Assembly (NCBI RefSeq): GCF_040267685.1
Contig: NZ_CP158367.1
Location: 186,001 to 250,000, forward strand
Length of the DNA stretch: 64,000 bases
Source of the DNA: Proteinivorax tanatarense
GTDB lineage: Bacteria > Bacillota > Proteinivoracia > Proteinivoracales > Proteinivoracaceae
Direction of reading: 5' to 3'
Under the pieces are notes generated by a model that saw nothing but the letters and a program-made list of their open reading frames with translations, searched no databases and was not told the DNA's origin. The stretch's first letter is position 1; every line of letters starts with the position of its first letter. Below are positions 19,844-53,980 of this stretch, in pieces. The translations under genes were made by a program, and so were the position numbers.

Positions 19844-20321
19844 TGTCTCCCAATAAAAAAGTTTGTTCAAAAATAAAAAAGATTGTTTAAAACTCATAAA
19901 AAAGATTGTTCAAAACACAAATCCCTGTCGAATTCTGTAGGATATACACAGAAGACGGCAGGGGTTTATTATTAAAATTTTAGATAAAAGATATTGAAAA
20001 TCCCTATCGAAAAAAGCTGCTATGCCTTGCTGTTATAGTATTTATACAACTTTAACTTTAATAATAAAAGGAAAATATATCGAAGACCATATCGAAAAAA
20101 GCCTATAGAAAAATATGTCGAATTTTGGCGATGACGAACAAACTTTATTAACTTGAAGTAATTTACATTCTTACAGAAATTAGTGGATGAATGGAAGTAA
20201 TTAGGAAAAATTTTGAACAAACTTTATTTACTTGTAAAAAATGGGAAAAGTGGTGTGAGAGCAGATGTGATAGAGGGTTAGGGGTGGTTGGATTTTGAAC
20301 AAACTTTATTATAAATAGACA
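19844..20321 (+). mobile_element. Gene-less Tn7-like mini-element, unit 1
   Basis: The 478-bp unit starts TGTCTCCC and ends AATAGACA. The left part has three dense 21-bp TnsB-type sites (19,852-19,872; 19,872-19,892; 19,895-19,915; core AAAAAGTTTGTTCAAAA). The right part has three inverted, spaced sites GAACAAACTTTATT (20,136; 20,215; 20,297). This dense/spaced asymmetry is that of Tn7R and Tn7L. CCCAT flanks both sides. Between the ends lie a terminator-like hairpin (CCCTGTCGAATTCTGT with ACAGAAGACGGCAGGG) and AT-rich filler without a gene. Confidence 0.82.
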
Positions 20322-20326
20322 CCCAT

Positions 20327-20802
20327 TGTCTCCCAATAAAAAAGTTTGTTCAAAAATAAAAAAGATTGTTTAAAACTCATAAAAAAGATTGTTCAAAACA
20401 CAAATCCCTGTCGAATTATGTCGGTTATGCACAGAAGACGGCAGGGTTTTTTATTAAAAATATAGAGAAAAGATATTGAAAAGCTCTATCGAGGAAAGCT
20501 GGTATGCCTTGTTGTTATAGTATTTATACAACTATAACTTTAATAATAAAAGCAAAAAATATCGAAAACCATATCGAAAAAGCCTATAGAAAAAGATGTC
20601 CAATTTTGGCGATGACGAACAAACTTTATTAACTTGAAGTAATTTACATTCTTACAGAAATTAGTGGATGAATGGAAGTAATTAGGAAAAATTTTGAACA
20701 AACTTTATTCACTTGTAAAAAATGGGAAAAGTGGTGTGAGAGCAGATGTGATAAAGGGTTAGGGGTGGTTGGATTTTGAACAAACTTTATTATAAATAGA
20801 CA
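20327..20802 (+). mobile_element. Gene-less Tn7-like mini-element, unit 2
   Basis: The 476-bp unit has the same TGT...ACA ends and site layout as unit 1, and follows directly after the CCCAT duplication. It differs from unit 1 at scattered positions, for example TTATGCACA in the hairpin loop at 20,425-20,433. The flank after it is CCTAT, one change from CCCAT. Confidence 0.82.
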
Positions 20803-20807
20803 CCTAT

Positions 20808-21022
20808 TGAAAAATATGTCGAATTTTGGCGATGACGAACAAACTTTATTAACTTGAAGTAATTTACATTCTTACAGAAATTAGTGGATAGATGGAAGTA
20901 ATTAGGACAAATTTTGTACAAACTTTATTCACTTGTAAAAAATGGGAAAAGTGATGTGAGAGCAGATGTGATAGAGGGTTAGGGGTGGTTGGATTTTGAA
21001 CAAACTTTATTATAAATAGACA
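20808..21022 (+). mobile_element. Tn7-like mini-element unit 3, only the spaced-site end left
   Basis: It matches the last 215 bp of units 1 and 2, including three GAACAAACTTTATT-type sites (the middle one mutated to GTACAAAC) and the ACA terminus. The dense-site end is deleted. Following sequence to 21,190 is non-coding and G-rich with AGGGGTTAGG-like runs. Confidence 0.75.
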
Positions 21023-21192
21023 TAGTTAGGGGTTAGGAATTAGGTTTTAGGGGTAAGGGGGGAGTTTGGTATAAGTTTATGGTGTAAAAAATATTAATCC
21101 TTATTTATAAAAAGGTTTTTGTCTACAAAGGTAGAAATATAAAATAAGTAGTTGGAATAATTTTCTTTCAAAAGTTAGTAGGAGGTTTTAAT

Positions 21193-21804
21193 GTGGGAAA
21201 TAAAAACAATAAAAGGAAATACATAATAGCAGCGTCTGTTTTAGCTAGTTTAGCTGTTTTGTTTGTGTTGTTTTTGCAGTTTTTTAGCGGACAAGCAGCA
21301 AAGGGTGATATTCAAAACTATGATGACTACTGCTTAATTAAAGAGCAGTTAAAAGTTATAGAGTTTGCTAACGAAAACCCCGGCTTAAAACCTGACGAGC
21401 TAAAAACAGTAGTTGAACAAAAAGGTGTAACAGAAGTTTCAAAAGCTATGTACATTAGCCAAACGACTGAAATATACGCCGACGCTACAAACGATAGCAA
21501 CAAGCTAGGCATAATGGACAAAGATGAAAAAGTTAAAGTAACGGGAAAAGTAAAAAATGGCTGGTATCAAGTAGAATATGGCGATGATAAAGGGTATATA
21601 AACGGCGATTACCTAACCCCAAAAAAGCCAGAACCAAAACCAGAACCGGAACCAGAGCCTGAGCCAGAGCCAAAACCAGAGCCTGAACCCGAGCCTAAGC
21701 CACCGAGTAATGGTGGGGGTAACGGAGATAATCCACCGGGGTGGACTCCTATAGAGGATATCGAAGGCGGTGTAGAGAGTCCCTATGAGGATGACGATAA
21801 TTAA
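21193..21804 (+). CDS. Membrane-anchored SH3-domain protein with Pro-Glu repeat tail
   Basis: The 203-residue protein has an N-terminal transmembrane anchor (about residues 9-30) after basic NKRK. An SH3b domain follows (about 96-140; EIYADATNDSNKLGIMDKDEKVKVTGKVKNGWYQVEY, given here as EIYADATNDSNKLG and NGWYQVEY). The tail is a (PEPEPKPEP)n stretch (about 143-170) and a Gly/Asp-rich end. Start is GTG 21,193 after AGGAGG; the overlapping ATG at 21,191 opens an 11-codon frame only. It probably binds the cell wall. It is the first gene after the Tn7-like block. Confidence 0.7.
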   Translation: MGNKNNKRKYIIAASVLASLAVLFVLFLQFFSGQAAKGDIQNYDDYCLIKEQLKVIEFANENPGLKPDELKTVVEQKGVTEVSKAMYISQTTEIYADATNDSNKLGIMDKDEKVKVTGKVKNGWYQVEYGDDKGYINGDYLTPKKPEPKPEPEPEPEPEPKPEPEPEPKPPSNGGGNGDNPPGWTPIEDIEGGVESPYEDDDN

Positions 21805-22073
21805 AGGAGGTATTAAAAGTAAATGAGTAGATTAAAGCATGTTGGCTTATTTACATTGCTTTAACAATTCGGGCTAATTCTGTATAGTAAGTGCTGCTAG
21901 CAGCCAATTAAGCCTGATATTACTTTTAATTAGTGGGAAAGAAGGAGCGCTGACCTTTGTCCCCCTCCTCAAAAAAAGCAGATAAAACACAAATCCCTGT
22001 CGAATTCTGTCGGTTATCCACATTTTAATCCACAGAAGACGGCAGGGTTTTTATTAAAGTTATAGAGATAAAA

Positions 22074-22125
22074 CATCATAAATTAAAAAAGAGAAGGTAT
22101 TCCTTCTCTTTTCTAATTTATGATG
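22074..22125. terminator. Long perfect hairpin, covarying with a second copy
   Basis: CATCATAAATTA...AGAGAAGG pairs with CCTTCTCT...TAATTTATGATG. A related hairpin lies at 54,144-54,193, where the outer pair changed on both arms (CATCAT/ATGATG to CAACAT/ATGTTG). Both are followed by CTATAATAGG and the 37-bp repeat. It could serve as a bidirectional terminator or an RNA element. Confidence 0.6.
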
Positions 22126-22130
22126 CTATA

Positions 22131-22243
22131 ATAGGCCGCATTTAAAGTAGCGGAACACTTAGAAGATATAGGCCGCTCTTAAAGTGGCGGAACACTTAGA
22201 AGATATAGGTCGCTCTTAAAAGTGGCGAAACACTTTGAATTAT
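22131..22243. repeat. Three tandem 37-bp repeats
   Basis: Units start at 22,131, 22,168 and 22,205, each beginning ATAGGYCGC and containing GCGGAACACTTAGAAGAT; the third is degenerate. A single copy occurs at 54,196-54,240. There are no spacers, so this is not a CRISPR array. Confidence 0.75.
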
Positions 22244-23204: not shown

Positions 23205-23277
23205 ACTGATTTAGAGGATTATTCGAAACTTTCGAGAAGAAGTTTGATAGAAAAAAATAGTGAAAGGGGTGTTGGTT

Positions 23278-23526: not shown

Positions 23527-23530
23527 AATA

Positions 23531-23572
23531 CATTAAATGACTATGAGCGCTGGTCGCCATAGTCATTTAATG
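23531..23572. terminator. Bidirectional terminator between convergent small genes
   Basis: A perfect 15-bp inverted repeat CATTAAATGACTATG/CATAGTCATTTAATG with a 12-nt loop lies between the + gene ending at 23,526 and the - gene whose stop (23,541-23,543) is inside the stem. Confidence 0.8.
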
Positions 23573-24167: not shown

Positions 24168-24548
24168 CTACGCGTCTTTGTTTATTTCTTTTTTTATCGT
24201 TCTCATATAACCGTAAAGCATTTTAGTAATTTCTTTGATGTTTTCATCGTACTCTTTATATTTGGCCTCGCTAATATAATTCTGATTATAAGCACTTTCT
24301 AGGTAGTAGTCAGCTTCTCTAGCGGAACCAAATGCGTTAGCAGCATAGTTGAACTGTTTTCTCAAAAAAGGACTTGCTGTCCCCTCAGCAAGATTTGCGG
24401 CAATTGAATCAGTAGCTTTAGGAAGCTGTTTTTTTAATATATCCTGTTCGTGATGGGGGAAGGTTTTAGCTACCTTATTGATTTGTAGATGAAATAATCT
24501 TGCTTTTTGAAAAACCTTTAGCTTACGAAAATCTTTGATATGTTTCAT
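24168..24548 (-). CDS. Four-helix-bundle protein of the 23S rRNA IVS family
   Basis: 127 residues from ATG 24,548 (AAGGAG upstream). The family hallmarks are visible: FRKLKVFQKARLFHLQI, FP..E, LKKQLPKATDSIAANLAEG, and FGSAREADYYLE. The family (PF05635 type) forms pentameric four-helix bundles. It includes products of rRNA intervening sequences and Avd accessory proteins of diversity-generating retroelements. No reverse transcriptase or variable repeat is nearby, so no retroelement is implied. Role unknown. Confidence 0.85.
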   Translation of the reverse strand: MKHIKDFRKLKVFQKARLFHLQINKVAKTFPHHEQDILKKQLPKATDSIAANLAEGTASPFLRKQFNYAANAFGSAREADYYLESAYNQNYISEAKYKEYDENIKEITKMLYGYMRTIKKEINKDA

Positions 24549-24748
24549 TTCGAAACAACTCCTTTTTTTGTTTTTTTGTCTTGTATTTTTAACATAACAC
24601 ATAAATTTCAAAAGTAAGGAGAAAACAAAATTTTTTTATGCTTTTTAAATAAAATTTGTTATTCAAAACTAAGAGTATTTAGAAATGAATAGTGAACAAA
24701 AAAGGTAATAAAAACTTGAATCATGCTCACTCTTTGGTTATAACATTT

Positions 24749-24821: not shown

Positions 24822-25763
24822 ATGAAAGAACAGGTTGAATTTATTGGCATCGACAAAGGCAATGGCTATATTAAAGCAGGAAGTGAAATTATCTTTCCAG
24901 CAGGGCTTAGTGTAACAGAAGGTGAGCCGCTTTCTAACTATAGGCTTTTGAAGTACAATGGTAAGCAGTATAACATTGGAGATTCTCGGCTGAAGTTTAC
25001 AAAAGATAAAGCCAATGAAGCTTTTTTAGTTTTAGCCTTGGCAGCAATCGCCATGAGATTAGAGAAGGTAAATAAGCAAAAAGGTGATGTTGTGTTAGGA
25101 TTGGGGGCGCCAATTTCTGATTATGGTTTTTTGAAAAACACATACACCAACTACTTTACAAAAAATAATCTTAATTTTGCCTTTAACGGAAAAAAGTACG
25201 AAATTGATATTAAAAAAGTTTACTGTTTTCCACAAGGGATTGCAGGTTTTCTGCACAATTATCATAATTTTGGCAGCGAGTACAGTTATTTTAATCTGTT
25301 AGACTTTGGAAATATCACCCTCGATGCTGTAACCATAGGAAAAGATAAAAAGCCTATATTGGACAGTGCAATAAGCCTAGAATATGGCATGACAAGCTTA
25401 GTAAAAAGAATTCAAAAAAAGGTAAATCATACTTTAGGCATTAGCTTAGCTGAAGAGCAAGTAGAGCTAGCTCTGACTGAGAAAACTAGCGTGTTTTTTA
25501 ATGAAAGGATTCAAGAAATTATAGAAGAAGCCAAAAAAGACTTTATTGAAGATAGCTTCAAAGAGCTGCATGAAAATGGCTTTAAATTACAAGGCTCAAT
25601 AAATGTATTGATGGGTGGCGGGGCGAAAATAGTTAATGCGAGCATTGATGCAAACAATCACCAGAAAACCATTGGATACGCAGAAGTGATGCCAGATGAG
25701 CAATTCGCTAATTCTTTAGGTTTTGAGAAGCTGGCAAAACAAGCATACTTGCAAGGTAGGTAA
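24822..25763 (+). CDS. parM: ParM-like actin-family plasmid segregation ATPase
   Basis: The 313-residue protein begins with the actin-fold phosphate-1 loop IGIDKGNGYIKA, has a second loop LLDFGNITLDAV near residue 163, and an adenosine motif INVLMGGGAKIV near residue 259. It matches the ParM/StbA/Alp actin-like family, which polymerises into filaments that push plasmid copies apart. ATG follows AAAGGAG. It overlaps no gene and is followed after 3 nt by a small ParR-like gene. This is the clearest sign of plasmid origin for the island. Confidence 0.85.
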   Translation: MKEQVEFIGIDKGNGYIKAGSEIIFPAGLSVTEGEPLSNYRLLKYNGKQYNIGDSRLKFTKDKANEAFLVLALAAIAMRLEKVNKQKGDVVLGLGAPISDYGFLKNTYTNYFTKNNLNFAFNGKKYEIDIKKVYCFPQGIAGFLHNYHNFGSEYSYFNLLDFGNITLDAVTIGKDKKPILDSAISLEYGMTSLVKRIQKKVNHTLGISLAEEQVELALTEKTSVFFNERIQEIIEEAKKDFIEDSFKELHENGFKLQGSINVLMGGGAKIVNASIDANNHQKTIGYAEVMPDEQFANSLGFEKLAKQAYLQGR

Positions 25764-25766
25764 AGC

Positions 25767-26039
25767 ATGGGTTATAGAAGAATCAACCTATCCTTTGACA
25801 GCAGAAAAGATTCGCATAATAGGTCCTATGAAATGTTAAAGAACAAAGGTAGAGAAAAAACAGACTTTATCGTAAAAACTATTCTAAATGACAAAGAAAA
25901 TGAAGACATTGAGCTGATAAAAGCAGCTTTGCGGGAAGTGCTAAATGAAAGCAATATAGTCAAGGAAAAACAGAAGGAAAACAAAGATAGTTCACAATCA
26001 GTTCCTGATGATGTGTTTGACATATTTGATAACATGTAG
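25767..26039 (+). CDS. ParR-like adaptor, probable ribbon-helix-helix protein
   Basis: 90 residues directly downstream of parM. The N-terminal YRRINLSFDSRKDSHNRSYE resembles a ribbon-helix-helix strand-helix start, and the acidic/hydrophobic tail PDDVFDIFDNM resembles the ParM-binding tail of ParR proteins. In type II partition systems ParR binds the centromere and caps ParM filaments. The assignment relies on position, size and architecture more than on sequence identity. Confidence 0.65.
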   Translation: MGYRRINLSFDSRKDSHNRSYEMLKNKGREKTDFIVKTILNDKENEDIELIKAALREVLNESNIVKEKQKENKDSSQSVPDDVFDIFDNM

Positions 26040-30220: not shown

Positions 30221-31054
30221 ATGACAAAGAATAAACTAGTACAACCACCCTTGAAATGGGTGGGGGGTAAAAGACAACTTATTTCAGAAATCGAAAAATC
30301 CCTCCCAAATAAATGGTCAACATATTACGAACCGTTTGTAGGTGGTGGGGCTGTATTATTTCACTTGCAGCCTAAAAAAGCTGTTATTAATGATGTAAAT
30401 GATGAGTTAATTAATTTTTATAGTACTGTAAAAGAAAATGTTGAAGAATTAATCAATGAATTAAAAAAATTTAAGAATAAAGAGGACTTTTTTTATGAGG
30501 TGCGTGGTTGGGATAGGAGTCCAGCATACAAGGATTTATCTAGTATAAAAAAGGCTGCTCGTTTACACTTTTTAAATAAGACTTGTTATAATGGTTTATA
30601 CAGGGTTAATAATGCGGGGGAGTTTAATGCCCCTTTTGGTAAATATAAAAATCCTGATTTTGTAAATGAGTCTGTATTGAGAGCAATAAACATTTTTTTA
30701 AATAAAAGCAACGTAAGAATATGTAATTGTGACTATCAAGATGCTTTGCGAGGGATAAGAAAGGGAGCTTTTGTTTATTTTGACCCTCCTTATGACCCTG
30801 TTTCATCTAGCGCAAGTTTTACAGGATATTCTCAAGGAGGTTTTGATAGAAATGAGCAAATAAGGCTAAAAGAAATTTGTGATAAATTAAATAAGAAAGG
30901 AGTCAAGTTTCTGCTTTCTAACTCAGCAACAGATTTTATAAAGGAATTATATAAGGAGTATGACATTAAAATAGTTAAAGCGAGAAGAAGTGTAAACTCT
31001 GTTGCTTCTAAGAGGGGGGAAGTTGAGGAAATACTTGTGAAGAATTATGACTAA
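30221..31054 (+). CDS. DNA adenine-N6 methyltransferase, Dam/D12 class
   Basis: 277 residues with the D12-class signatures: the AdoMet-binding PPLKWVGGKRQLI at residues 6-18, YYEPFVGGGAVLF near 38-50, and the catalytic FDPPYDP near residue 187. Relatives methylate GATC or related sites. It overlaps the following nuclease gene by 8 nt, so this is the modification half of a type II restriction-modification system. The recognition sequence cannot be read from the protein with certainty. ATG lies 8 nt after AGAGGG. Confidence 0.92.
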   Translation: MTKNKLVQPPLKWVGGKRQLISEIEKSLPNKWSTYYEPFVGGGAVLFHLQPKKAVINDVNDELINFYSTVKENVEELINELKKFKNKEDFFYEVRGWDRSPAYKDLSSIKKAARLHFLNKTCYNGLYRVNNAGEFNAPFGKYKNPDFVNESVLRAINIFLNKSNVRICNCDYQDALRGIRKGAFVYFDPPYDPVSSSASFTGYSQGGFDRNEQIRLKEICDKLNKKGVKFLLSNSATDFIKELYKEYDIKIVKARRSVNSVASKRGEVEEILVKNYD

Positions 31055-32324
31055 AGTAAATAAAGGTTGGGAAGAGTTGTTTGAGAGGCACAATATTTTG
31101 TATAAGGTAGATACCGAAGGATATTATAAAGTAACGTCAAAAGCAATAAATAAGGTCAGAGAAGCTAGGCTAATGACAAAATTTGACCACAAGAATAACC
31201 TTCCGGAAATTTTTCAACAGAACAACTTGTCTATTTTGCCTATTACTAGGGGCAGTTATGTTATATCAAAATTTGATGCCTATAAAGAGTTACACTATAA
31301 CAAAGACTTAGATACCGCTGAAATAGAGTTCCCATCTGAGATTGAGAGTATTGATTTTAGTAATATTTATAGTGAAGCAACGGCTTTAAATTGCGCCTAT
31401 TCTACAGGAATAATAAATCTTTTTTTAAATGAAGAACATACACTGCCAACTATCAGCGGAAGAATGAGTTCAAGCAGTTTTAGTTTTAATATTAGAAATA
31501 TTGAAACTAATAACAAATTTCCAGTTGATGTTCAGAACAGTCAAGTTGAAATTGATGGAGGATATGAAGGTAGAAACAAGCTTATGCTCGTAGAAGCTAA
31601 GAACTCTGTGTCAAAGGATTTTCTTGTAAGACAACTATACTATCCATATAGATTGTGGAGACAGAAAGTAAGTAAAGAAGTAGTTCCAGTATTTATGACG
31701 TTCTCTAATGATGTATGGAGTTTTTTTGAGTACAAGTTTACAAACCCCTTGGAATATAATTCACTTGTACTTGTAAAACAAAGAAACTACATGATAGCAC
31801 CAGAAAAAATAAACTTAAATGATATAAAAAATGTCTTAGAAAATGTGACCATTATAAAAGAACCAAAAGTTTCATTTCCGCAAGCTGATTCATTTAAAAG
31901 AGTTATCAATTTGTTAGAGATGCTAATGGAAAAAGATTTGGATAGGGATTACTTGACACATACACTAGATGTTCACCCTAGGCAAACTAATTATTATACG
32001 AGCGCAGCTATGTACTTAGGTTTAATAGAAAAGAAAAGAGAAGATGGTGTGACTCTTTACTACGTTACAGAAGAAGGTAAAAAAATTATGAATATGACAT
32101 ATAAAAAGAAGTATTTATCAATAATAGAGAAGATACTTAGGAATCCTTCATTTAACGAGTCCTTTAGGTGTTTTTTGAAAGACGGGTATCCACCAGATAA
32201 CAAAAAGATTGTTGAAATAATGAAAAAAACGAATATCTATAAAGTTGAAAAAGATAGTACCTTTTCCAGAAGAGCTACAACAGTAAAATCCTGGTTAGAT
32301 TGGATTTTAAGCTTACAAGAATAA
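31047..32324 (+). CDS. Type II restriction endonuclease (PD-(D/E)XK type)
   Basis: 425 residues, overlapping the methyltransferase gene by 8 nt. A probable nuclease centre EIDGGYEGRNKLMLVEAKNS fits the D-x(n)-E-x-K pattern (about residues 172-190). A C-terminal winged-helix-like part (about 285-425; HPRQTNYYTSAAMYLGL) may bind DNA. It resembles type II enzymes that pair with D12 methylases. The combination protects the host while cutting unmethylated DNA, and helps keep the element in the cell. Confidence 0.8.
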   Translation: MTKVNKGWEELFERHNILYKVDTEGYYKVTSKAINKVREARLMTKFDHKNNLPEIFQQNNLSILPITRGSYVISKFDAYKELHYNKDLDTAEIEFPSEIESIDFSNIYSEATALNCAYSTGIINLFLNEEHTLPTISGRMSSSSFSFNIRNIETNNKFPVDVQNSQVEIDGGYEGRNKLMLVEAKNSVSKDFLVRQLYYPYRLWRQKVSKEVVPVFMTFSNDVWSFFEYKFTNPLEYNSLVLVKQRNYMIAPEKINLNDIKNVLENVTIIKEPKVSFPQADSFKRVINLLEMLMEKDLDRDYLTHTLDVHPRQTNYYTSAAMYLGLIEKKREDGVTLYYVTEEGKKIMNMTYKKKYLSIIEKILRNPSFNESFRCFLKDGYPPDNKKIVEIMKKTNIYKVEKDSTFSRRATTVKSWLDWILSLQE

Positions 32325-32535: not shown

Positions 32536-34479
32536 CTAAGCATCTAAAATATCTTCCTTAACAAGCAAGTATTTTTTTGTGTCTATGCCAAGTGCTTTAT
32601 TAACCTTCTTGTTTGCTTTTATATAAGAGAGGTTGTATTTTTGCATAACATCAGGCAAAATTCTTTTAAGTTCATACTCTTTTTCTCCACGTCTAATATA
32701 GTTACCACCTGCTTGTAATTGTCGATTTATCAGCATACTCTTAGTAAAATAGCCGCAGGATTTAATTTGTTGTAGAATGAAATCTTCTATAGTTCGGCTA
32801 ATTTTTTCAGACTTCCTGCTTTCTTTTATATTTGTATGATAAATTTGGTTTACTAATGCTTCACCGAAACAGTTTACTACAAACTTCTTGCTCATTCCGT
32901 TAATACTAAAGCCATACCTCAGCATCTTTTCTGCCCGCTCATTAGCGATTTTCAATATCCTGTTATAGTCGGGAACAGTGTAAAAAGATATACCTATATA
33001 ACCATTACTTTTAGCCATTTCCTTTGCCTTTTTTTGTAAATTCACGTTAACTTTACTATAGGGGATTTTATTCAATAATCCTAAAGTACAAAATAAGTTA
33101 ACATATTTATTTACGTTTCCCGTGCTTTTTTTTAGCTTTTTTGCTAAAAATCCATTAGAAAAGAAGAACAGATTATCGTCATCAACACTAAAGTATCTAT
33201 TATAGGTATTTTCCTTAGAAATTTCGAGAATCGTTATTAAAGTTTGGAAGCCAAATCTAATAATCCTGTTCAATTTTGGGAAGTCCTTTTCTATCTGGGT
33301 AATTAAGTAGATGTTTGTATCAATTTTTTTAGTCTGTTTACTTATCCAACTTGAGTCGATGTTTTTAATATCAAAATACTCTATTAAATGACTTATAGCC
33401 TGAGAAGTGGTCAAGTTTTCCTTGTATTCGACAATATCAATTATATCAGCACCGTTTTTAAATTGGCAGTTAGTTGAATTACAAAAATATCTATAGGCCC
33501 CATTTCTGTAGGTTATAACAGCACTTGGCTTTGAATCTTTATGAAAGACACAATTGAAGTTCACATTAAGTTCTGAATCTAGGCCTAAAAAATCTACCAG
33601 GTTCTGTGATTTTAAAAATGGTATTAAATTTTCATATGATATCGTAGAGGATGTTCCATGTTGATTAGGCTTATAAGTCTTAAGATTATGAGTCTTTGTC
33701 TTTTTATTAATCGTTTTCTTATTACTAGGAGTGGCTACCTTGTACCCTATTGCATTGGCAATATCATCCTGAGTGTATTTTTTTGAATTGTCAAAATGAA
33801 TACATTTTATTTTAAAAGGATTTTCTAAATCTTTTAAGTGATTGTAGTTTATGACTCTTAAAACTCTGCTTAAGTCCTTAACATTTGCATCAATATGTTC
33901 TTCTCTTTCTTCAAATCTAGCAAAGTACTTAATTAGTTTCTCTTGGAGAGCTGTAAAGGTTTTAAGGGAATTATCACTATCGTTTTTTACCAGCCAGTAA
34001 ACATGGAAACCATTTTTGGTTTCTACAATAATGTTGGGACATAGCTCAAACCTATTTAAATTTTTAAGAGCATTTGTTTTATATTTATTAACTTCATGGT
34101 GGCTTCTATATTCATAAACAACTTTCCCATTAGAATCTAGTAAAATTTCCCCATTAACTATTTTCGGGACCTTACCAAAATCCATATCAAGAAAATGAGC
34201 GTTAACCCTTTTTATAGATTTTTTAGTAGTTCCTCCACTATTAACAACAAAGTAAATTCCATAACCTTCTCTTTGTGCTTTTTCAAAGTGTTTTCTAGTT
34301 AAAGGATATTCTAGTTCATCATCTAATCTTAATGTTGAGTCTAGTTTTTTGGCCCCATACCCTTGCTCCTGAATCATTCTGAAATAAGTTTTTTCGTTAG
34401 GACCTCTAAATGCAGATAAAAACTCTATATCTGTAATATTAAGTTGTTCTCGGTTAGTAAAGTCTAATTTTAAATTCAA
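32536..34479 (-). CDS. Archaeo-eukaryotic-type primase / plasmid replication protein with CHC2-like zinc finger
   Basis: 647 residues when started at TTG 34,479, which has AAGGAGGAG 8 nt upstream; a GTG at 34,509 is in frame but lies before that site. The N-terminal half has the AEP primase motifs: HFLDMDFG (metal-binding Asp98 and Asp100), GFHVYW (His159) and DLSRVLRVINYNH. A CHC2-type zinc finger follows (CVFHKDSKPSAV ... YRYFCNSTNCQF, about 315-360). The C-terminus looks winged-helix-like. Such proteins initiate replication of plasmids. It supports a plasmid origin for the island. Confidence 0.85.
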   Translation of the reverse strand: MNLKLDFTNREQLNITDIEFLSAFRGPNEKTYFRMIQEQGYGAKKLDSTLRLDDELEYPLTRKHFEKAQREGYGIYFVVNSGGTTKKSIKRVNAHFLDMDFGKVPKIVNGEILLDSNGKVVYEYRSHHEVNKYKTNALKNLNRFELCPNIIVETKNGFHVYWLVKNDSDNSLKTFTALQEKLIKYFARFEEREEHIDANVKDLSRVLRVINYNHLKDLENPFKIKCIHFDNSKKYTQDDIANAIGYKVATPSNKKTINKKTKTHNLKTYKPNQHGTSSTISYENLIPFLKSQNLVDFLGLDSELNVNFNCVFHKDSKPSAVITYRNGAYRYFCNSTNCQFKNGADIIDIVEYKENLTTSQAISHLIEYFDIKNIDSSWISKQTKKIDTNIYLITQIEKDFPKLNRIIRFGFQTLITILEISKENTYNRYFSVDDDNLFFFSNGFLAKKLKKSTGNVNKYVNLFCTLGLLNKIPYSKVNVNLQKKAKEMAKSNGYIGISFYTVPDYNRILKIANERAEKMLRYGFSINGMSKKFVVNCFGEALVNQIYHTNIKESRKSEKISRTIEDFILQQIKSCGYFTKSMLINRQLQAGGNYIRRGEKEYELKRILPDVMQKYNLSYIKANKKVNKALGIDTKKYLLVKEDILDA

Positions 34480-40525: not shown

Positions 40526-42659
40526 TACGCTAGTTTCTTGGTATGTAAAAGACGAAAAGAAAACAGAAAGAATCCTTTGGCTTGACAGAAAAACAGATGT
40601 AGCATTTGTCATTGATATAAATGAAAACAAACTCCCAACTTTAAAAATATTAAGCGAAATCGAAAAAGAGGTGGAAAGCGGCAGCGCATCTGTAGAAGTG
40701 AATGATAAATGGCAGAAAAACATAACCGAAAACAAGCTACAAAAAAATCATAAAGAAAAGAGAGATAGAAGATGGACGATAATTGAGAAGATAGCAACAA
40801 AAGAGCCTGATATTTACATGAAAGAAAAAAGAAGTATGTTACTAAAAGAAGCTGCAAAAGCGCATAATGTACCCGAAGGGAGCATAGCTAGAATATTAAA
40901 ATTATTTTGGAGGGGAGGCAAGACAAAAAATGCCTTAACCCCTGATTATCAAAAAGCAGGGGGGAGAGGAAAAGAAAAATCAGCTGGAGGTATAAAGAGA
41001 GGGAGACCCCGAAAACAGGGGGAAATCTTTGGAGAGGGAGTTAACATCGATGAAAGGATAAAGGAGATATTTCAGGCTGCTGTGAACAAATACTACTATA
41101 GCTATAACCAAAACACATTAAGATTTACTTACGAAATGATGCTGAAAGAATACTTTTCAGACAAAGCTACAACTGATACTGGTGCGAAAATTCCTGTCAT
41201 AAAATCAAGCAGCGAAATTCCAACCTACAATCAGTTCAGATATTGGTATCAAAAACAGCGAGATTTCAAAAAAGAAGTTAGGTTAAGGCGTGGTGCTAAG
41301 AAGTATGAACAACAAAATAGGTCTGTTTTAGGAAACTCAACATCTGAAGCTTTAGGGCCAGGTTCAATTTATCAAATTGATGCAACTATAGGCGATGTTT
41401 ATCTGGTGAGCCAATTTAATAGAAATTGGGTCATAGGTAGGCCAGTAATCTATGGCATAATTGATGTTTTTTCGAGGTTAGTTGTTGGGATATATGTGGG
41501 TCTTGAGGGCCCATCTTGGACTGGTGCCATGATGGCCCTTGCTAACGCAGCTATGGATAAAGTACAGTTTTGCAAAAAATATGGAATTGAGATAACTGAA
41601 AAACAATGGCCGGCTCAACATTTGCCTGACGCTATTTTAGGGGATAGAGGGGAACTAGAAGGAAAAAATGTTGAGAATTTAATTAGTTCTTTAGGCGTTA
41701 AAATACAAAATACCCCTCCATATAGAGCTGACTGGAAAGGTATTATCGAACAGAATTTTAAAACGACAAATCAAAGGGTGAAGCCCTTTACGCCAGGTGC
41801 GGTTAACGTAGATTTTAACGAAAGAGGAGACAAAGACTATAGGCTAGACGCTAAATTGACGTTAAAAGAGTTTACACAGATTATAATAAGGTCAGTACTA
41901 TTTCACAATAACTACAATATTTTAAAAAATTACAACCGAGAAGATATGATGATTGAAGATGATGTGGAACTGTTGCCGCTTAGTCTTTGGAAATGGGGTA
42001 TAGCTAATCGCTCTGGAAAGTTAAAAAGTGTAGACGCTGATATAATTAAATTGAGCTTGTTACCTAACGCAACGGCGGCAGTTACAAGTAGGGGTATTAA
42101 ATTTAAAAAAATGTATTATGCTTCGAATTTGACAATTCAAGAAAACTGGTTTGAAAAGGCAAGAAACAAAGGTTATTGGAAGGTAGATGTATCTTATGAC
42201 CCACGAAATATGAAGTATCTTTACGTGCATGCTGGCGGTCATGGCGAGTTTGAAAAATGCCAAATGTTAGATTATCAGGAGAGTTATTTTGATAAATTCT
42301 TTGAAGAAATTGAGTTTCTTCAAGAAAAAGAAAAAAATGATATTAAAAAAATGGAAGAGCAGGAACTGCAGCAAAAAGTGGAAATGATGACTGAGGTAGA
42401 GCAGATTGTCAAAAAGGCAGAGATTGAATTTGAAAAAGAGTTAGAGCATGTAAGCAAATCTCAAAAAATCAGAGGCATAAGGGAGAATAGAAAACTTGAA
42501 AAAGAGTATAACCGTGGGGATGAAGCTTTTGAACTGCAGAAGACCCCAAAAAGAGATGCTGAACTTATAAAACTAAAGGGCCAAAAACCTCATGAAAACC
42601 AAGATGAAATGGACTTACTGAGAAAAAAGCAAAGGGAGGCATTTTTTACCGATGACTAG
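40509..42659 (+). CDS. tnsB: TnsB-like transposase (DDE/retroviral integrase family)
   Basis: It cuts and joins the 3' ends of the element. TTG 40,509 is chosen, since the purine tract GGGAGGGGGAGGG (40,494-40,506) is the only ribosome binding site; the frame is open from ATG 40,470. It gives 716 residues: helical DNA-binding domains, the integrase core with YQIDATIGDVYL (Asp), AILGDRGELEG (Asp) and DWKGIIEQNFK (Glu), a Mu-type beta barrel, and a charged coiled-coil tail that would contact TnsC. It overlaps tnsA by 17 nt and tnsC by 8 nt. Confidence 0.95.
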   Translation: MLVTVNTLVSWYVKDEKKTERILWLDRKTDVAFVIDINENKLPTLKILSEIEKEVESGSASVEVNDKWQKNITENKLQKNHKEKRDRRWTIIEKIATKEPDIYMKEKRSMLLKEAAKAHNVPEGSIARILKLFWRGGKTKNALTPDYQKAGGRGKEKSAGGIKRGRPRKQGEIFGEGVNIDERIKEIFQAAVNKYYYSYNQNTLRFTYEMMLKEYFSDKATTDTGAKIPVIKSSSEIPTYNQFRYWYQKQRDFKKEVRLRRGAKKYEQQNRSVLGNSTSEALGPGSIYQIDATIGDVYLVSQFNRNWVIGRPVIYGIIDVFSRLVVGIYVGLEGPSWTGAMMALANAAMDKVQFCKKYGIEITEKQWPAQHLPDAILGDRGELEGKNVENLISSLGVKIQNTPPYRADWKGIIEQNFKTTNQRVKPFTPGAVNVDFNERGDKDYRLDAKLTLKEFTQIIIRSVLFHNNYNILKNYNREDMMIEDDVELLPLSLWKWGIANRSGKLKSVDADIIKLSLLPNATAAVTSRGIKFKKMYYASNLTIQENWFEKARNKGYWKVDVSYDPRNMKYLYVHAGGHGEFEKCQMLDYQESYFDKFFEEIEFLQEKEKNDIKKMEEQELQQKVEMMTEVEQIVKKAEIEFEKELEHVSKSQKIRGIRENRKLEKEYNRGDEAFELQKTPKRDAELIKLKGQKPHENQDEMDLLRKKQREAFFTDD

Positions 42660-44310
42660 AAAAATTAATATTCCTAACGGTGCTGAAGCAGTTAAAGCAA
42701 GCTATATAGAGCAAGCGATAAGGGAATATCAAGGTAACCCTTTCATAGAGGCGCTTCCACCAATTTTGAATAAAGGAGAGGTAGTTGAGAAGTTGGCTGT
42801 CTACCCCCATTATGATGAAGGTGAAAAGAATCTAGCTCCTCACCTGAGGCTACACATAGTACAGAGGATATTTCAATGCCTTCAACCTTTGCCCATACAT
42901 TTAGACTTGGAAAGTAGGATTTCTAGGGTGATTCGGCAGGGGTACTTAGCAAGAAACCCTTCTAAGCCAGAATTCGCAGAAAGCTTTCATACAGGAAAAA
43001 AAATGATTGAAAATCTAAGCTTAGAGATTTCAAATAACGATAAATTTAGAAGCACAGCATCGGGTTTTACAGTTATAGGTGTAAGTGGCATGGGAAAAAC
43101 AACGGCAGTAAACCAAGTGCTGTCAACTATACCCCAGGTTATCGTTCATTCAGAATACAGGGGAAATCAATTTAATATGCATCAATTGTCGTGGCTAAAG
43201 CTGGACTGCCCTTTCGATGGTTCTGTTAAGGGCCTGTGTATGGAGTTTTTTGCCAAAGTTGATAGCTTATTAGGGACCACCTATTTCAGAAAACATGGAG
43301 CTAAAAGAAACACCGTTGATTCAATGCTGACAGTGATGAGTCAGGTTGCAAGAAATACTGCCCTCGGAATGTTAGTTATTGACGAAATACAACACCTAAA
43401 AGAAGCCAAAAGTGGTGGAAGCTCGAAGATGCTAAACTTTTTCGTTACACTTATTAATACAATCGGACTGCCCGTTATCCTGATTGGCACCCCAAAAGCT
43501 ATGTCCATACTTCAATCAGAGTTTAGGCAAGCCCGACGGGGTAGTGGGCAAGGAGACTTTGTTTGGGATAGGCTGAAAAAAGATATGAACTGGGACCTTT
43601 TCATCGAGGCTTTTTGGGAATTTCAGTGGACCCGAAAGAAGACCCCCTTGTCTGAGGAGATAAAAGAAGTGCTTTATGAAGAAAGTCAGGGAATCATTGA
43701 TGTAGCTGTTAAGCTCTTTGCGATGGCACAAGTAAGAGCAATTAATTCAGGAAAGGAACATTTAGATAAAAAGCTTATCAAACAGGTAGCAAAAGAAAAT
43801 CTTAAACTGATAAGGCCAATGATTCAAGCGCTCAAGAGCAACAACATGAGTAAAGTAGCAAAGTTTGAAGATATTTCAAACTTGGATTTTGAAGAATTTT
43901 TGATTGAAGAAACACCAAGAGTAAACAGTTCTGAAGAAAAGATTAAAGAAATATTACTAAAGAAAAAATCCGCCGAAAATGAAAAAAACATTTCGGCAAA
44001 AGAAAAAGCAGTGCTGAAACTATTAGATTTAGATATTCCTTCTAAAAAAGCTGCAGCACTAGTATCAAAAGTTATAGAAGATGAAAGTGATGACATTTCA
44101 GTTTCGAATCTAGTAATAAAGGCTATAAAAGTAAATTCAGAAGAGAAAAGCACAAGAGATAATATTAAAATTAAAAAGCTAAAGAAAGATGATTTAAGGG
44201 CAATAGCAAAAGAAAAAAATAATAATTCAACATATCAATCATTTAAAGAAAAAAATATTATTAAAAATAGTCCAGATGATTTTTCTGAAAGGGTGTTTTT
44301 GGATGATTAG
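42652..44310 (+). CDS. tnsC: TnsC-like AAA+ transposition regulator
   Basis: 552 residues. Walker A VSGMGKTTAV with Lys149, Walker B LVIDEIQHL with Asp244-Glu245, and sensor region LPVILIGTPKA. TnsC joins the target selector (TnsD) to TnsAB and gives target immunity. The C-terminal 130 residues are highly charged and probably bind TnsA/TnsB. ATG 42,652 overlaps the tnsB end by 8 nt. Confidence 0.95.
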   Translation: MTRKINIPNGAEAVKASYIEQAIREYQGNPFIEALPPILNKGEVVEKLAVYPHYDEGEKNLAPHLRLHIVQRIFQCLQPLPIHLDLESRISRVIRQGYLARNPSKPEFAESFHTGKKMIENLSLEISNNDKFRSTASGFTVIGVSGMGKTTAVNQVLSTIPQVIVHSEYRGNQFNMHQLSWLKLDCPFDGSVKGLCMEFFAKVDSLLGTTYFRKHGAKRNTVDSMLTVMSQVARNTALGMLVIDEIQHLKEAKSGGSSKMLNFFVTLINTIGLPVILIGTPKAMSILQSEFRQARRGSGQGDFVWDRLKKDMNWDLFIEAFWEFQWTRKKTPLSEEIKEVLYEESQGIIDVAVKLFAMAQVRAINSGKEHLDKKLIKQVAKENLKLIRPMIQALKSNNMSKVAKFEDISNLDFEEFLIEETPRVNSSEEKIKEILLKKKSAENEKNISAKEKAVLKLLDLDIPSKKAAALVSKVIEDESDDISVSNLVIKAIKVNSEEKSTRDNIKIKKLKKDDLRAIAKEKNNNSTYQSFKEKNIIKNSPDDFSERVFLDD

Positions 44311-46138
44311 TTTTTTTCCGACACCCTACGAAGACGAGACTCTCCATAGCGTCATAGCACGGTACCATCTAAGGAGTGGGAATCAAAGCTCAAAATCAAC
44401 ATTGCAAGAGTTGTTTAGTCAAAAAACAGTCACAGCCACTGTTGATTTGCCCTCCCATATCGGGGAACTTATTGATAATTTACCACTTGGCAATCAAATG
44501 GATGCTGAATATTTAATCAAACACCACACTCTTTATCCTTTTTACACAGCTTTTTTGGATAGTGAAAGAAAAAAGAAGATTTTTAATTCCATGGCAGAAG
44601 GGAAAGGAGCTAGCATTCATAACAGTGCAGGAATCATGGCAAGCTCTATTAAAGCAAATAAATATTTAAAATTTTGCCCTTTATGTTTTAAAGAAGAGGC
44701 AGATAGCCTCGGGGAACCATATTGGCACAGAGCACATCAAATACCAACAATCCCTATATGTCATAAGCACCGAATCCCCCTGCAAAATAGTCAAGTTTTA
44801 CTTAAACCACAAAATAAACACCAGTTTATAGCAGCAACTAAAGAAAACTGCGTTATTCAGAGTTCAGATAGTTATGCCGAGGAAACTATTAAAATTTTAT
44901 TTATGTTAGCTAAAAATGCTTATGTTATACTCCAGAATAATTTTAATAATATAGGTGAATTTAATATTAAAAATAAATATTATGCAAGGTTGCAAGAGAA
45001 GAGGTTTGCTACTGTCAATAGTAGAATCTATCGAACCGAATCAACGCGAGAGTTTAAAAAATTTTTTGGCAGTGAACTCTTACAATTAACTCAATCAGAT
45101 TTTGACTCAGAAAAGAACTCCAACTGGTTACTGGAGTTTTTAACAAAACAGGATAGAGCAATGCATCCGACTAGGCATTTATTGCTAGCGATGTTTTTAA
45201 ATATTTCTTTGTATGAGCTTTTTTCAGGCGAAACCAAATTTAACACCTTTGGAGCTGGGCCATGGCCCTGTTTAAACAAAGTCTCAGACCATTATCAACA
45301 GTTGACAATTCCTGATATTATAATAAGCCATAGCTCAGATGCCAAAAAGCCTATCGCTACATATAATTGCTCAAAATGTGGATTTGTCTATAAAAGAACA
45401 ATGGGGGAAAAAAACTATAGGGTTATAGATTATGGTTTTAGGTGGAGGGAAAAGCTAAAAGAACTGTCAAAAAAGGGATTATCTCTCAGGGAAAAAGCTA
45501 GAATATTAGGAGTCGACCCCAAAACAGTAAAAAAATACCTAGAAAAAGATAAAAGGCGTGAAAGTCCCAAGGAAAACAAAGAAAGGATAACAAAAGATAA
45601 AGAGAATTACAGAACAAGCTGGCTTGTAACTATAGCAGAAAATAGGGAGAAGGGAAAAACCCAGGTAAGAAAACTAAATCAACGGGCATATTCGTGGCTT
45701 TACAAAAATGATAGAGATTGGCTCATACAAAACTCACCAGCTAGCACACCAGCAAAACAGCAAAACATTAAAGTGGACTGGCGTGAAAGGGATAAAAGAG
45801 TTTCAGAGATGGTTAAGGAGGTGGTCGATGAAAAACTTAGCTCAGAAAGTAAACCGGAAAAAATAACCAAAAGCAAAATAGGCAAAGAGTTAGGTATTCA
45901 AGATTTGCTTCAAAAGCACCTAAGTAAAATGCCTAAAACTAAGCATTATCTAACTGGTGTATTAGAGTCAGATTATACATTTAGGAAGAGGCGAGTAAAG
46001 TGGGCTATTACAGAATTGGAAAGGAAAAACAAATCCTTAAAAAAATGGGAAATCTATAAACAGGCTGGAATTAGAAAAGAATACAAGCAAGAATTGGATG
46101 AGTTCGTTGATGAATTAATAAGTGATAGGGAGAACTAA
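44303..46138 (+). CDS. tnsD: TnsD/TniQ-family target-site selector
   Basis: 611 residues from ATG 44,303 (GAAAGGGTG upstream; overlaps tnsC by 8 nt). The TniQ domain begins FFPTPYEDETLHSVIARYH. The zinc-binding cluster is CPLCFKEEADSLGEPYWHR followed by CHKHRIPL, and a second CSKCGF lies near residue 358. The long C-terminal half with a helix-turn-helix (LSLREKARILGVDPKTVKKYL) is TnsD-like rather than short TniQ-like. This fits recognition of attTn7 at glmS, where the island sits. No tnsE follows. Confidence 0.92.
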   Translation: MISFFPTPYEDETLHSVIARYHLRSGNQSSKSTLQELFSQKTVTATVDLPSHIGELIDNLPLGNQMDAEYLIKHHTLYPFYTAFLDSERKKKIFNSMAEGKGASIHNSAGIMASSIKANKYLKFCPLCFKEEADSLGEPYWHRAHQIPTIPICHKHRIPLQNSQVLLKPQNKHQFIAATKENCVIQSSDSYAEETIKILFMLAKNAYVILQNNFNNIGEFNIKNKYYARLQEKRFATVNSRIYRTESTREFKKFFGSELLQLTQSDFDSEKNSNWLLEFLTKQDRAMHPTRHLLLAMFLNISLYELFSGETKFNTFGAGPWPCLNKVSDHYQQLTIPDIIISHSSDAKKPIATYNCSKCGFVYKRTMGEKNYRVIDYGFRWREKLKELSKKGLSLREKARILGVDPKTVKKYLEKDKRRESPKENKERITKDKENYRTSWLVTIAENREKGKTQVRKLNQRAYSWLYKNDRDWLIQNSPASTPAKQQNIKVDWRERDKRVSEMVKEVVDEKLSSESKPEKITKSKIGKELGIQDLLQKHLSKMPKTKHYLTGVLESDYTFRKRRVKWAITELERKNKSLKKWEIYKQAGIRKEYKQELDEFVDELISDREN

Positions 46139-46872
46139 CAGTTTATGATAAACCAAAAATATAAGAAAAAAGATTAGGCTTTTTTTAAAAAAATCCACTA
46201 AAAAGAGGAGTTACTTGAAAAACTAGCAAAAAGCAACTACTCCTTCGTCAACTACCCACCACTTAAACTCTAACGAGTTTTGAAGTGGGGGCTTGTAAGA
46301 GCCCTAGTTGACTAGCCTAAGTACTATAAGTGCTACGTTATTTTAGTTATCATACCCTAGAATGATACCCTAGTTCTAGGCTCTATGTAGGCTCTGTAAA
46401 CAGTCCTGATGGGTAGGGGCAGTCAACCTAAAGTGTATTTCGCACATACAAGCTATTATAACATTGGCGAAGGGTAACTACTTGTTGGTGGAACAAGGAT
46501 ACATTTATGTAATGTATCGCAAAACCACTGAAGATACATTACCAATTCATCCCCCACCTAAAGAGGGTGGGGACTTCTTGGCAAATGAAGTTAACGAAAT
46601 GAAGTGTTTATATAGCTTAAGTAGTCAAGAAACTACTGATTTTCAGTTCTTAAAAAGATAATAGAAACTCACTCTTGAACAGAAGGATTTGATTAATAGA
46701 AAACAATCGTAATTAACAACTATATGTTCCAAAAACAATTGATAATGGCACACCTTAGCAGATGTGCCATTTATCGTATTTATCATGTTTCATAATTATT
46801 ATTCAAAAACTATTGTTTTTGGTATGTGTTTGTGATACATTTAAAACAATTAATGGAAAAAGGTGGTATATA
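46139..46872. other. Spacer after tnsD
   Basis: Besides the RNA element, a hairpin GGAGTT...AACTACTCC (about 46,207-46,243) may end the tns operon. The 200 bp before the resolvase gene show AAGGTGG as its ribosome binding site and nothing else. Confidence 0.5.
46230..46585 (+). ncRNA. Orphan HEARO/omega-RNA-like structured RNA with IS200/IS605-type end hairpin
   Basis: Strong structure without an ORF. A helix GTCAACTA (46,247)/TAGTTGAC (46,305) encloses two hairpins (CCACTT..GAAGTGG and GGGCTTGTAAGAGCCC). Further hairpins follow at 46,319-46,333 and 46,350-46,372, and then the stretch GGGTAGGGGCAGTCAACC. It ends in the hairpin CCCCCACCTAAAGAGGGTGG and ACTTCTTGGC, typical of IS200/IS605-family ends. 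This resembles the RNA of IscB/TnpB-type elements, but no nuclease gene is present. Family assignment is from memory of such ends. Confidence 0.55.
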
Positions 46873-47451
46873 ATGAAGTTTGGTTACGCACGAGTGTCGA
46901 CTCAAAAGCAAAACCTTCAAATGCAAATCGACGCTTTGGAAAAGCATGGAGTAGATGAAATCATTTCCGACAAAATAAGTGGCTCGAAAGTTGAGAGAAA
47001 AGGATTGAACAATTTATTAAATAAACTAAGAAAAGGAGACACCCTTGTCGTTTGGAAGCTGGACAGACTTGGGAGAACAATGTTTCAGTTAGTTAACTTG
47101 TTAAATGGGTTTAAGGATAAAGGTATAAACTTCATTTCAATACAAGATGGAATTAACACAAGCACAACCATGGGTAAATTTATGTTTCACGTAATGGGAG
47201 CCATGGCTGAAATGGAAAGAGAAGTAATAAATGATAGGGTGAAAAGTGGCCTAGAAAGTGCTAAGGCTAGAGGGCGGCAAGGTGGGAGAAAAAAAGCCCA
47301 CAGTAAGGAAAAGATTGATACTATGGTAAAAATGGTTTCAGATGGTTATAGCAAGAAAGAGATTTGCGAGAGTATGGGGGTAAGCAGGACAACTTTATAT
47401 AGGTATATAAAGGAAGCTGAGTATTTTACACAAATTAAGACTAAATATTAA
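46873..47451 (+). CDS. Serine recombinase of the resolvase/invertase family
   Basis: 192 residues from ATG 46,873 (AAAAGGTGG upstream; the frame is open further 5' but without signals). The catalytic serine is in GYARVSTQKQNLQ, with WKLDRLGRT, MGAMAEMEREVINDR and the C-terminal helix-turn-helix YSKKEICESMGVSRTTLYRYI. It is closest in layout to Tn3-type resolvases and Hin/Pin invertases. It could resolve cointegrates or plasmid dimers, which matches the structure proposed for the island. No res-site repeats were confirmed in the flanks. Confidence 0.93.
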   Translation: MKFGYARVSTQKQNLQMQIDALEKHGVDEIISDKISGSKVERKGLNNLLNKLRKGDTLVVWKLDRLGRTMFQLVNLLNGFKDKGINFISIQDGINTSTTMGKFMFHVMGAMAEMEREVINDRVKSGLESAKARGRQGGRKKAHSKEKIDTMVKMVSDGYSKKEICESMGVSRTTLYRYIKEAEYFTQIKTKY

Positions 47452-52619: not shown

Positions 52620-52663
52620 TGGATATATCTTTAATCAAGCGAAGAGAAAAGCACTAAAGAAAA

Positions 52664-52694
52664 GCTCAATTCTTAAGAAAGGGGGGAATTGAGC
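52664..52694 (+). terminator. Hairpin after the DUF4365 gene
   Basis: A 9-bp stem GCTCAATTC/GAATTGAGC with a 13-nt loop, 45 nt past the stop, without a clear T-run. From here to 52,801 the sequence is non-coding and ends in CCCTAACCCCTAACTCC-like runs. Confidence 0.5.
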
Positions 52695-52801
52695 AAGAGT
52701 TTGATGATAAGAAAGGATAAAAGTTCAAATAATATAATTAACGGCAAACATAGTAGATATAGCTGTTTTTTATCTACCCCTAACCCCTAACTCCTACACC
52801 A

Positions 52802-53279
52802 TGTCTCCCAATAAAAAAGTTTGTTCAAAAATAAAAAAGATTGTTTAAAACTCATAAAAAAGATTGTTCAAAACACAAATCCCTGTCGAATTCTGTAGGA
52901 TATACACAGAAGACGGCAGGGGTTTATTATTAAAATTTTAGATAAAAGATATTGAAAATCCCTATCGAAAAAAGCTGCTATGCCTTGCTGTTATAGTATT
53001 TATACAACTTTAACTTTAATAATAAAAGGAAAATATATCGAAGACCATATCGAAAAAAGCCTATAGAAAAATATGTCGAATTTTGGCGATGACGAACAAA
53101 CTTTATTAACTTGAAGTAATTTACATTCTTACAGAAATTAGTGGATGAATGGAAGTAATTAGGAAAAATTTTGAACAAACTTTATTTACTTGTAAAAAAT
53201 GGGAAAAGTGGTGTGAGAGCAGATGTGATAGAGGGTTAGGGGTGGTTGGATTTTGAACAAACTTTATTATAAATAGACA
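52802..53279 (+). mobile_element. Tn7-like mini-element, second copy of unit 1
   Basis: Same length and, as far as I can read, same sequence as 19,844-20,321. The upstream flank here is CACCA, not CCCAT; downstream CCCAT (53,280-53,284) is kept. Confidence 0.82.
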
Positions 53280-53284
53280 CCCAT

Positions 53285-53760
53285 TGTCTCCCAATAAAAA
53301 AGTTTGTTCAAAAATAAAAAAGATTGTTTAAAACTCATAAAAAAGATTGTTCAAAACACAAATCCCTGTCGAATTATGTCGGTTATGCACAGAAGACGGC
53401 AGGGTTTTTTATTAAAAATATAGAGAAAAGATATTGAAAAGCTCTATCGAGGAAAGCTGGTATGCCTTGTTGTTATAGTATTTATACAACTATAACTTTA
53501 ATAATAAAAGCAAAAAATATCGAAAACCATATCGAAAAAGCCTATAGAAAAAGATGTCCAATTTTGGCGATGACGAACAAACTTTATTAACTTGAAGTAA
53601 TTTACATTCTTACAGAAATTAGTGGATGAATGGAAGTAATTAGGAAAAATTTTGAACAAACTTTATTCACTTGTAAAAAATGGGAAAAGTGGTGTGAGAG
53701 CAGATGTGATAAAGGGTTAGGGGTGGTTGGATTTTGAACAAACTTTATTATAAATAGACA
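53285..53760 (+). mobile_element. Tn7-like mini-element, second copy of unit 2
   Basis: Matches 20,327-20,802 over its full 476 bp; followed by CCTAT as in the first block. Confidence 0.82.
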
Positions 53761-53765
53761 CCTAT

Positions 53766-53980
53766 TGAAAAATATGTCGAATTTTGGCGATGACGAACAA
53801 ACTTTATTAACTTGAAGTAATTTACATTCTTACAGAAATTAGTGGATAGATGGAAGTAATTAGGACAAATTTTGTACAAACTTTATTCACTTGTAAAAAA
53901 TGGGAAAAGTGATGTGAGAGCAGATGTGATAGAGGGTTAGGGGTGGTTGGATTTTGAACAAACTTTATTATAAATAGACA
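53766..53980 (+). mobile_element. Second copy of truncated unit 3
   Basis: Matches 20,808-21,022, including the mutated middle site. It is followed by CCCAT (53,981-53,985) and a new TGT end. Confidence 0.8.

Follow-up and report, generated by a model that had tools for sequence, protein, structure and literature searches.

The window analysed here is a stretch of 64,000 nucleotides from Proteinivorax tanatarense (NZ_CP158367.1, positions 186,001–250,000), and all coordinates below are window positions. Just past glmS, at attTn7, we identified a 34-kb segment in which a complete Tn7-type operon (tnsA, tnsB, tnsC and tnsD, 39,674–46,138) and plasmid-type genes lie between two direct copies of a 1,179-bp block (19,844–21,022 and 52,802–53,980; offset 32,958 bp). 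Base-by-base comparison of the copies gave 0 differences, with the identity extending 0 bp past either edge, and CCCAT lies outside the outer edges of both (19,839–19,843 and 53,981–53,985). Both results agree with a first-pass annotation of this DNA, which had reported identical repeats and a CCCAT at each outer edge and was silent on the interior tnsABCD.

Each block is an array of Tn7-type end pairs (mini-elements, TGT...ACA), of which the third retains only its distal half; we take the glmS-proximal and distal ends to be the Tn7 right and left ends, respectively. The first block starts 24 bases past the end of glmS, and beyond the second copy CCCAT is followed by another proximal end at 53,986, the start of an older element. 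The full-length block was found only at these two places in the single-contig genome of 3,091,218 bp (nine matches, the other seven partial), and a chance or genome-wide repeat was rejected on that ground. Mini-elements 1 and 2 within one block differ by 22 mismatches and 2 gap columns (~5%) and yet the two blocks are identical, so their identity is not due to chance.

Window TnsA, TnsB and TnsC align with their structurally solved Tn7 counterparts along most of the sequence, and TnsB has a single match in the genome. The DDE residues of TnsB are presumably kept, as judged by eye in the alignment to Tn7 TnsB. TnsA reads Q/S/S/K at Tn7 positions E63/D114/Q130/K132, and the alignment around residue 114 is free of gaps (STDFLV in Tn7, STSFLI in the window). 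In Tn7 TnsA, E63, D114 and K132 are the catalytic residues; May and Craig reportedly worked on D114A in Tn7.

The first pass had also described a plasmid-type interior with partition, primase and resolvase genes. This stands for the ParM-like gene, the serine resolvase and the primase-like protein, the last recognized through PHROG primases and without a Pfam match, while the ParR assignment rests on gene position. The primase-like protein shares 26% identity with a protein encoded on a Natranaerobius plasmid of 17.2 kb.

Table 1. Features of the attTn7 segment and its borders (window positions)
Feature	Position	Strand	Basis
glmS, attTn7 target gene	18005..19819	+	ORF; orthologues in relatives
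Outer target-site duplication CCCAT, glmS side	19839..19843	.	sequence
Direct repeat copy 1 (block)	19844..21022	+	identical to 52802–53980
Mini-element 1	19844..20321	+	proximal TGTCTCC, 3 packed TnsB-like sites; 3 spaced distal sites; ends TAGACA
Hairpin with T-rich tail within proximal end of mini-element 1	19917..19971	+	folding, z = -7.4
CCCAT between mini-elements 1 and 2, same as attTn7 duplication	20322..20326	.	sequence
Mini-element 2	20327..20802	+	95.4% identical to mini-element 1
Truncated mini-element 3, distal half only	20803..21022	+	sequence
Inner flank TAGTTA after copy 1	21023..21028	.	same in G102, G296, G117
Four-helix-bundle protein (23S_rRNA_IVP)	24168..24611	-	homologues in attTn7 loci of G095, G102, G117, G296
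ParM-like actin (ALP_N)	24822..25763	+	Pfam
Small gene in ParR position	25767..26039	+	position only; no ParR family match
D12 adenine methyltransferase, cargo	30221..31054	+	family match
Type II restriction enzyme, cargo	31047..32324	+	family match
Primase-like replication protein	32536..34509	-	PHROG primases; plasmid homologues; no Pfam match
IS21-type insertion (istA, istB)	35646..37962	+	homology
TnsA without catalytic acids (E63Q, D114S, Q130S, Tn7 numbering)	39674..40525	+	alignment to Tn7 TnsA
TnsB transposase	40470..42659	+	match to Tn7 TnsB
TnsC ATPase	42652..44310	+	match to Tn7 TnsC
TnsD target selector	44276..46138	+	E 5e-98
Serine resolvase, domain from ~residue 40	46762..47451	+	domain match
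Inner flank CACCA before copy 2	52797..52801	.	no duplication of TAGTT
Direct repeat copy 2 (block)	52802..53980	+	identical to copy 1
Outer target-site duplication CCCAT, far side	53981..53985	.	sequence
Older Tn7-type element with cargo gene	53986..55638	+	decayed distal end near 55,638

Recurrence of the repeats and of the altered TnsA

Related elements were gathered by TnsB or TnsA searches of overlapping genome sets (5 of 101 relatives, 16 of 398 genomes of the phylum, five among the 20 members of the G095 family, six among 37 genomes of the G296 class and one among 26 of the G395 class; G numbers denote the genomes compared, G000 being the window genome). Weak or short TnsB matches (G034, G076, G148, G242, G279, G351) were left outside the comparison. 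A pattern scan of genome contigs, made with poor patterns, returned one locus, in T. saccharolyticum NTOU1. TnsA without an acid at Tn7 residue 114 is called acid-less below.

All five acid-less loci in which the tns genes are open and both flanks visible (G000, G095, G102, G296, G429) carry tnsABCD between near-identical direct copies, each beginning with a mini-element end. These repeats measure 1,179 bp with 0 differences in G000, ~1,438 bp with 2 mismatches and 2 gap columns in G095, 341 bp with 1 mismatch in G102, 341 and 342 bp with gaps only over 339 aligned positions in G296, and 462 bp at 100% identity in G429. Four loci fall outside this count: G113, whose contig ends inside copy 2; G117, with broken tns genes and copies at 88%; G118, with a broken TnsA and no second full copy seen; and G395, for which no TnsA, a partial TnsB and no repeat of at least 100 bp were found in its 61.8-kb contig. 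The contig break in G113, where glmS lies on a different contig adjoining the same end sequence, is as a repeat would cause.

Mini-element repeats around tns were found in none of the eight acid-bearing elements from seven genomes, of which G184 and G326 were viewed over just 18 and 41 kb, respectively. Repeat pairs of other kinds in this set were rejected as equivalents. A 262-bp pair on both sides of tns in G151 (85%) is part of a short coding sequence and has no TGT...ACA ends. The 1,192-bp direct pair of G063 (97.7%), upstream of glmS and downstream of tns, is presumably an insertion sequence, its product being, judged by eye, an IS110-type transposase. Shorter pairs in G125 (135 bp, 79%) and G177 (157 bp, 87%) lie on one side of tns only.

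The four TnsA positions read E/S/S/K in G095, G102, G113, G117 and G296 and Q/T/T/K in G429, and residue 114 is also S in the broken TnsA of G118. Tn7 and eight related elements have E/D/(Q, T or S)/K; residue 114 is D in G063, G125, G151, G177, G184, G256 and both elements of G326. In a TnsB tree that omitted G117, G118, G177 and G395, a branch separates the acid-less rows from the others, with support of 95/97 without G429 and 84/94 with it. dN/dS between G102 and G296 is 0.115 for TnsA, 0.053 for TnsB, 0.088 for TnsC and 0.127 for TnsD, and that of TnsA between G095 and G117 is 0.073. Both TnsA values fall within the TnsB–D range (0.053–0.127), so TnsA is under purifying selection despite the lost catalytic acid. 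The codon for Ser114 was observed to be TCG or TCA in G095, G102, G117 and G296 and AGC in the window, and the use of two serine codon families suggests that serine itself may be selected. An AlphaFold model of TnsA from five alignment rows had a mean pLDDT of 44.6 and was unusable.

Insertion lies 24 bases past the glmS stop in G000 and G095, 25 in G102 and 26 in G296. The G429 element directly follows rpsI, the ribosomal protein S9 gene, and encodes a shorter TnsD (425 aa), and rpsI may be an additional site at which Tn7-type elements attach. The outer duplications are perfect in G000 (CCCAT), G296 (GTTAT) and G429 (AGAGA). Between genomes, mini-elements are 83% identical for G102 and G296 and barely alignable (~56%) for window mini-element 1 and G102; the copies of a pair must hence be homogenised within each lineage.

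Directly after copy 1, TAGT was found in all five loci where that end was located (TAGTTA in G000, G102, G296 and G117; TAGTAA in G429), as an unchanging donor site would predict. The sequence before copy 2 is CACCA in G000, AACGA in G102 and G296, AACTA in G095, G113 and G117, and GATTG in G429. The conserved junction after copy 1 suggests that the mini-element is a fixed part of the plasmid. In G117, and on the left side of G095, the proximal end is preceded by AACTA, the reverse complement of the TAGTT that follows the distal end, and the terminal inverted repeats on the plasmid thus run 5 bp beyond TGT/ACA.

Plasmid-type genes vary among the loci. ParM-like genes are present in G000 and G429 and shortened in G095; the primase-like protein of the window type also occurs in G095 and G113 (split, in two reading frames) and in G117, and G102 encodes a DnaG/Toprim-type primase. 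An 891-aa protein of G429 without a Pfam match is, judged by eye, presumably its replication protein. Recombinases are of the serine type in G000 and of the tyrosine type in G102, with a homologue in G296, and in G429; none was identified in G095.

Orphan mini-elements were found as well. In the family of G095, glmS was matched in 19 of 20 genomes and its downstream region read in 18 (the G110 match was incomplete). Mini-element end sequence begins 23–27 bases past glmS in 14 of these 18, nine of them without a TnsB match (G103, G104, G105, G107, G108, G112, G115, G116, G119), with a weak resemblance in G112 (65% over 88 columns). Near-complete mini-elements without tns occur in G104, G107, G116 and G119. 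TAGTT follows a distal end in all four, so some of these are remains of integrated plasmids and not clean scars. In the genus mate G001, a single mini-element of 281 bp lies 337 bp past glmS; it has no matching duplication, and the genome has no TnsB match.

Proposed whole-plasmid integration and its alternatives

The 34-kb segment is probably a cointegrate, formed when a plasmid of ~33 kb integrated whole at attTn7 by replicative transposition with an apparently nuclease-dead TnsA. The architecture itself, its recurrence, the lost catalytic residues and the outer duplications are direct observations; we infer the biochemistry, a free replicon as donor and later release by recombination or a resolvase. 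The donor would be a circular replicon of ~33 kb with tnsABCD located outside its short Tn7-type mini-element, the latter being the 1,179-bp block in this case. TnsD would direct the transposition complex to attTn7, where TnsB would nick the 3' ends of the mini-element and join them 24 bp past glmS. We propose that the plasmid enters whole because TnsA has lost the DNA-cutting half of the reaction: unable to cut the 5' strands, it would leave the donor attached, and replication through the mini-element would duplicate it, placing the whole plasmid between two copies with the 5-bp duplication outside. Two identical direct copies around the putative donor, with the duplication outside, are what the window contains. 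Recombination, or a resolvase, could later release the plasmid and leave a mini-element scar; the serine resolvase lies in the single-copy part and could therefore resolve the cointegrate only at a site inside the block.

Our best reading is thus of a plasmid lineage that integrates whole at attTn7 or rpsI by replicative transposition. For a fuller scenario we see the chances as evenly balanced. In it, loss of TnsA catalysis would be the founding step that turned the Tn7 machinery into a whole-plasmid integrase, with the mini-element as permanent attachment module carrying a terminator; the plasmid would cycle between a free state and attTn7 (or rpsI), with recombination leaving scars, and TnsA would persist in a structural, non-cutting role alongside TnsB and TnsC.

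The first pass had offered a cointegrate or a Campbell-type integration of a circle. An integrated circle is well supported, and the cointegrate is favoured because of the interior tns operon, the TnsA acid loss and the recurrence in other such genomes. In the Campbell-type alternative, an earlier visit had left a block at attTn7, and host homologous recombination then joined it to the identical block on an incoming circle; the final structure and the outer CCCAT would be no different, and orphan attTn7 mini-elements without a TnsB match do exist in relatives. It nevertheless explains less, requiring two identical blocks beforehand and leaving the TnsA acid loss unaccounted for; moreover, tandem mini-elements within one array are ~5–22% apart (two arrays) and paired copies differ by 0–0.3% mismatches. 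We consider it unlikely. More improbable again is that the whole segment moves by cut-and-paste, as a single large composite Tn7 element whose ends are duplicated. Its outermost ends with CCCAT on each side would form a legal Tn7 unit, and the conserved inner flanks fit too, but its TnsA lacks the catalytic acids, and copies homogenised within and diverged between genomes would demand passage through a single copy or gene conversion. We give a slighter chance still to a TnsA that cuts via other residues, the repeats arising in another way: the protein is intact and under purifying selection, its serine is kept through both TCN and AGC codons, and the structure model is too poor for seeking a moved acid, yet acid loss associates with the repeats (5/5 against 0/8 loci examined). 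Least probable is an assembly artefact, a repeat common to both having led to the fusion of a separate plasmid with the chromosome, as short-read or careless assembly could produce; four other genomes show this architecture, perfect outer duplications being present in two of them, and a false join does not explain the outer CCCAT.

Several points weigh against integration as a cointegrate. The outer duplication of G102 is one base short (CGAAA/GAAA), and that of G095 is unclear, with no distal end found directly after either copy. The inner flanks of the block (CACCA/TAGTT) are not a duplication, which leaves the block's entry into the plasmid unexplained, and conserved inner junctions are also expected if a composite moves as one unit, which weakens the TAGT argument. 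Although partition and primase genes are present, tblastn searches of PLSDB with the primase, ParM and TnsB returned distant matches only and no close free plasmid; all 3,845 records with a TnsB match were below 60% identity, the best-ranked at 43.6%. Two scans of IMG/VR viral contigs, with the primase and with a TnsA alignment, yielded no relative of either. The earlier proposal that recombination between the repeats would free the plasmid is plausible and fitted by the orphan mini-elements in relatives without a TnsB match, but no free circle turned up in these searches. Finally, the association of acid loss with repeats comes from few loci of one group; as the acid-less rows form one group in the TnsB tree (84/94), the acid may have been lost only once, and only the integrations would count separately.

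Relation to known systems and further features

The element resembles Tn7 of E. coli (TnsABCD) in its TnsA, B, C and D homologues encoded together, its TGT...ACA ends, whose TnsB-like sites are packed in the proximal and spaced in the distal one, its 5-bp duplication and its insertion at a fixed short distance just after glmS. Unlike in Tn7, the duplicated unit is without tns genes, and tnsABCD lies between the copies (inside the unit only if the outermost ends define it). The inserted unit is a whole plasmid-like replicon, and TnsA lacks E63 and D114, so that the catalytic positions E63, D114 and K132 of cut-and-paste Tn7 read Q, S and K. Integrative plasmids and integrative and conjugative elements use tyrosine or serine integrases and short att sites. 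They are likewise replicon-like and stably integrated at a fixed chromosomal site; the window transposase, by contrast, would duplicate its own recognition element and leave long direct repeats.

The product resembles that of an engineered TnsA D90A mutant of a Vibrio cholerae CRISPR-transposon, for which excerpts of PMC8188705 give >95% cointegrate reads with a duplicated mini-transposon and plasmid backbone; in the window and its relatives the acid loss is natural and group-wide, and TnsA is under purifying selection. Cointegrates arise from elements without TnsA and are resolved by a site-specific system or host recombination (review, excerpts of PMC11406308), and TnsA point mutations abolish cut-and-paste and not replicative transposition, a missing tnsA being linked to resolvases (survey, excerpts of PMC8649781). 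The replicative route to cointegrates is thus shared with Tn5053/Tn402-like elements and type V-K CRISPR-associated transposons, some of which carry resolvases (same excerpts). These lack tnsA, whereas tnsA is present in the window, under selection and apparently non-catalytic.

A literature search, with most subscription papers outside it, found no description of a natural acid-less TnsA group or of such repeat-flanked plasmids, and neither is mentioned in excerpts of PMC10293859. The switch from cut-and-paste to replicative transposition by loss of the TnsA active site is already known from laboratory mutants; here it appears to have arisen naturally and to have been maintained by selection across several lineages within a single bacterial phylum, and plasmids thereby appear to gain whole entry into a safe chromosomal site. 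Natural TnsA proteins apparently without catalysis are now offered for study, and Tn7 surveys that seek one end pair around tns may mis-draw such loci.

A hairpin just inside the proximal end was obtained for 7/7 mini-elements folded, with z from -2.8 to -7.4 for stretches chosen by eye, a choice that favours low z; hairpin sequences are unrelated between groups. Folding makes it possible that the hairpin is a terminator protecting glmS or rpsI transcription after insertion. A consensus terminator scan of 19,800–24,900 gave seven terminator-like sites, none at the mini-element hairpins.

A 23S rRNA IVP-type gene occurs in all five attTn7-located acid-less loci with the first repeat visible (G000, G095, G102, G117, G296) and was found neither in G429 nor in any acid-bearing stretch searched. 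Five palindromic repeats of ~68 bp (AAAAAGAGTAACAATAAG...CTTATTGTTACTCTTTTT) lie between interior genes in both orientations (28370–28440, 29979–30049, 32460–32532, 34660–34730 and 35410–35478). All 10 genome matches of the palindrome fall within this interior, with none in G001 or G002, and the repeats look like cassette borders or two-way terminators. Within the interior, the 117 bp at 21956–22072 have a 100% match in G001, downstream of its glmS (L027:3923–4039); they are perhaps chromosomal DNA captured when the plasmid excised on an earlier occasion, or the G001 stretch is what remains there of a related plasmid. Outside the segment, arrays of ~120-bp repeats at 60600–61160 and 62740–63570 flank an apparent ABC-transporter gene pair, the genes being judged by eye.

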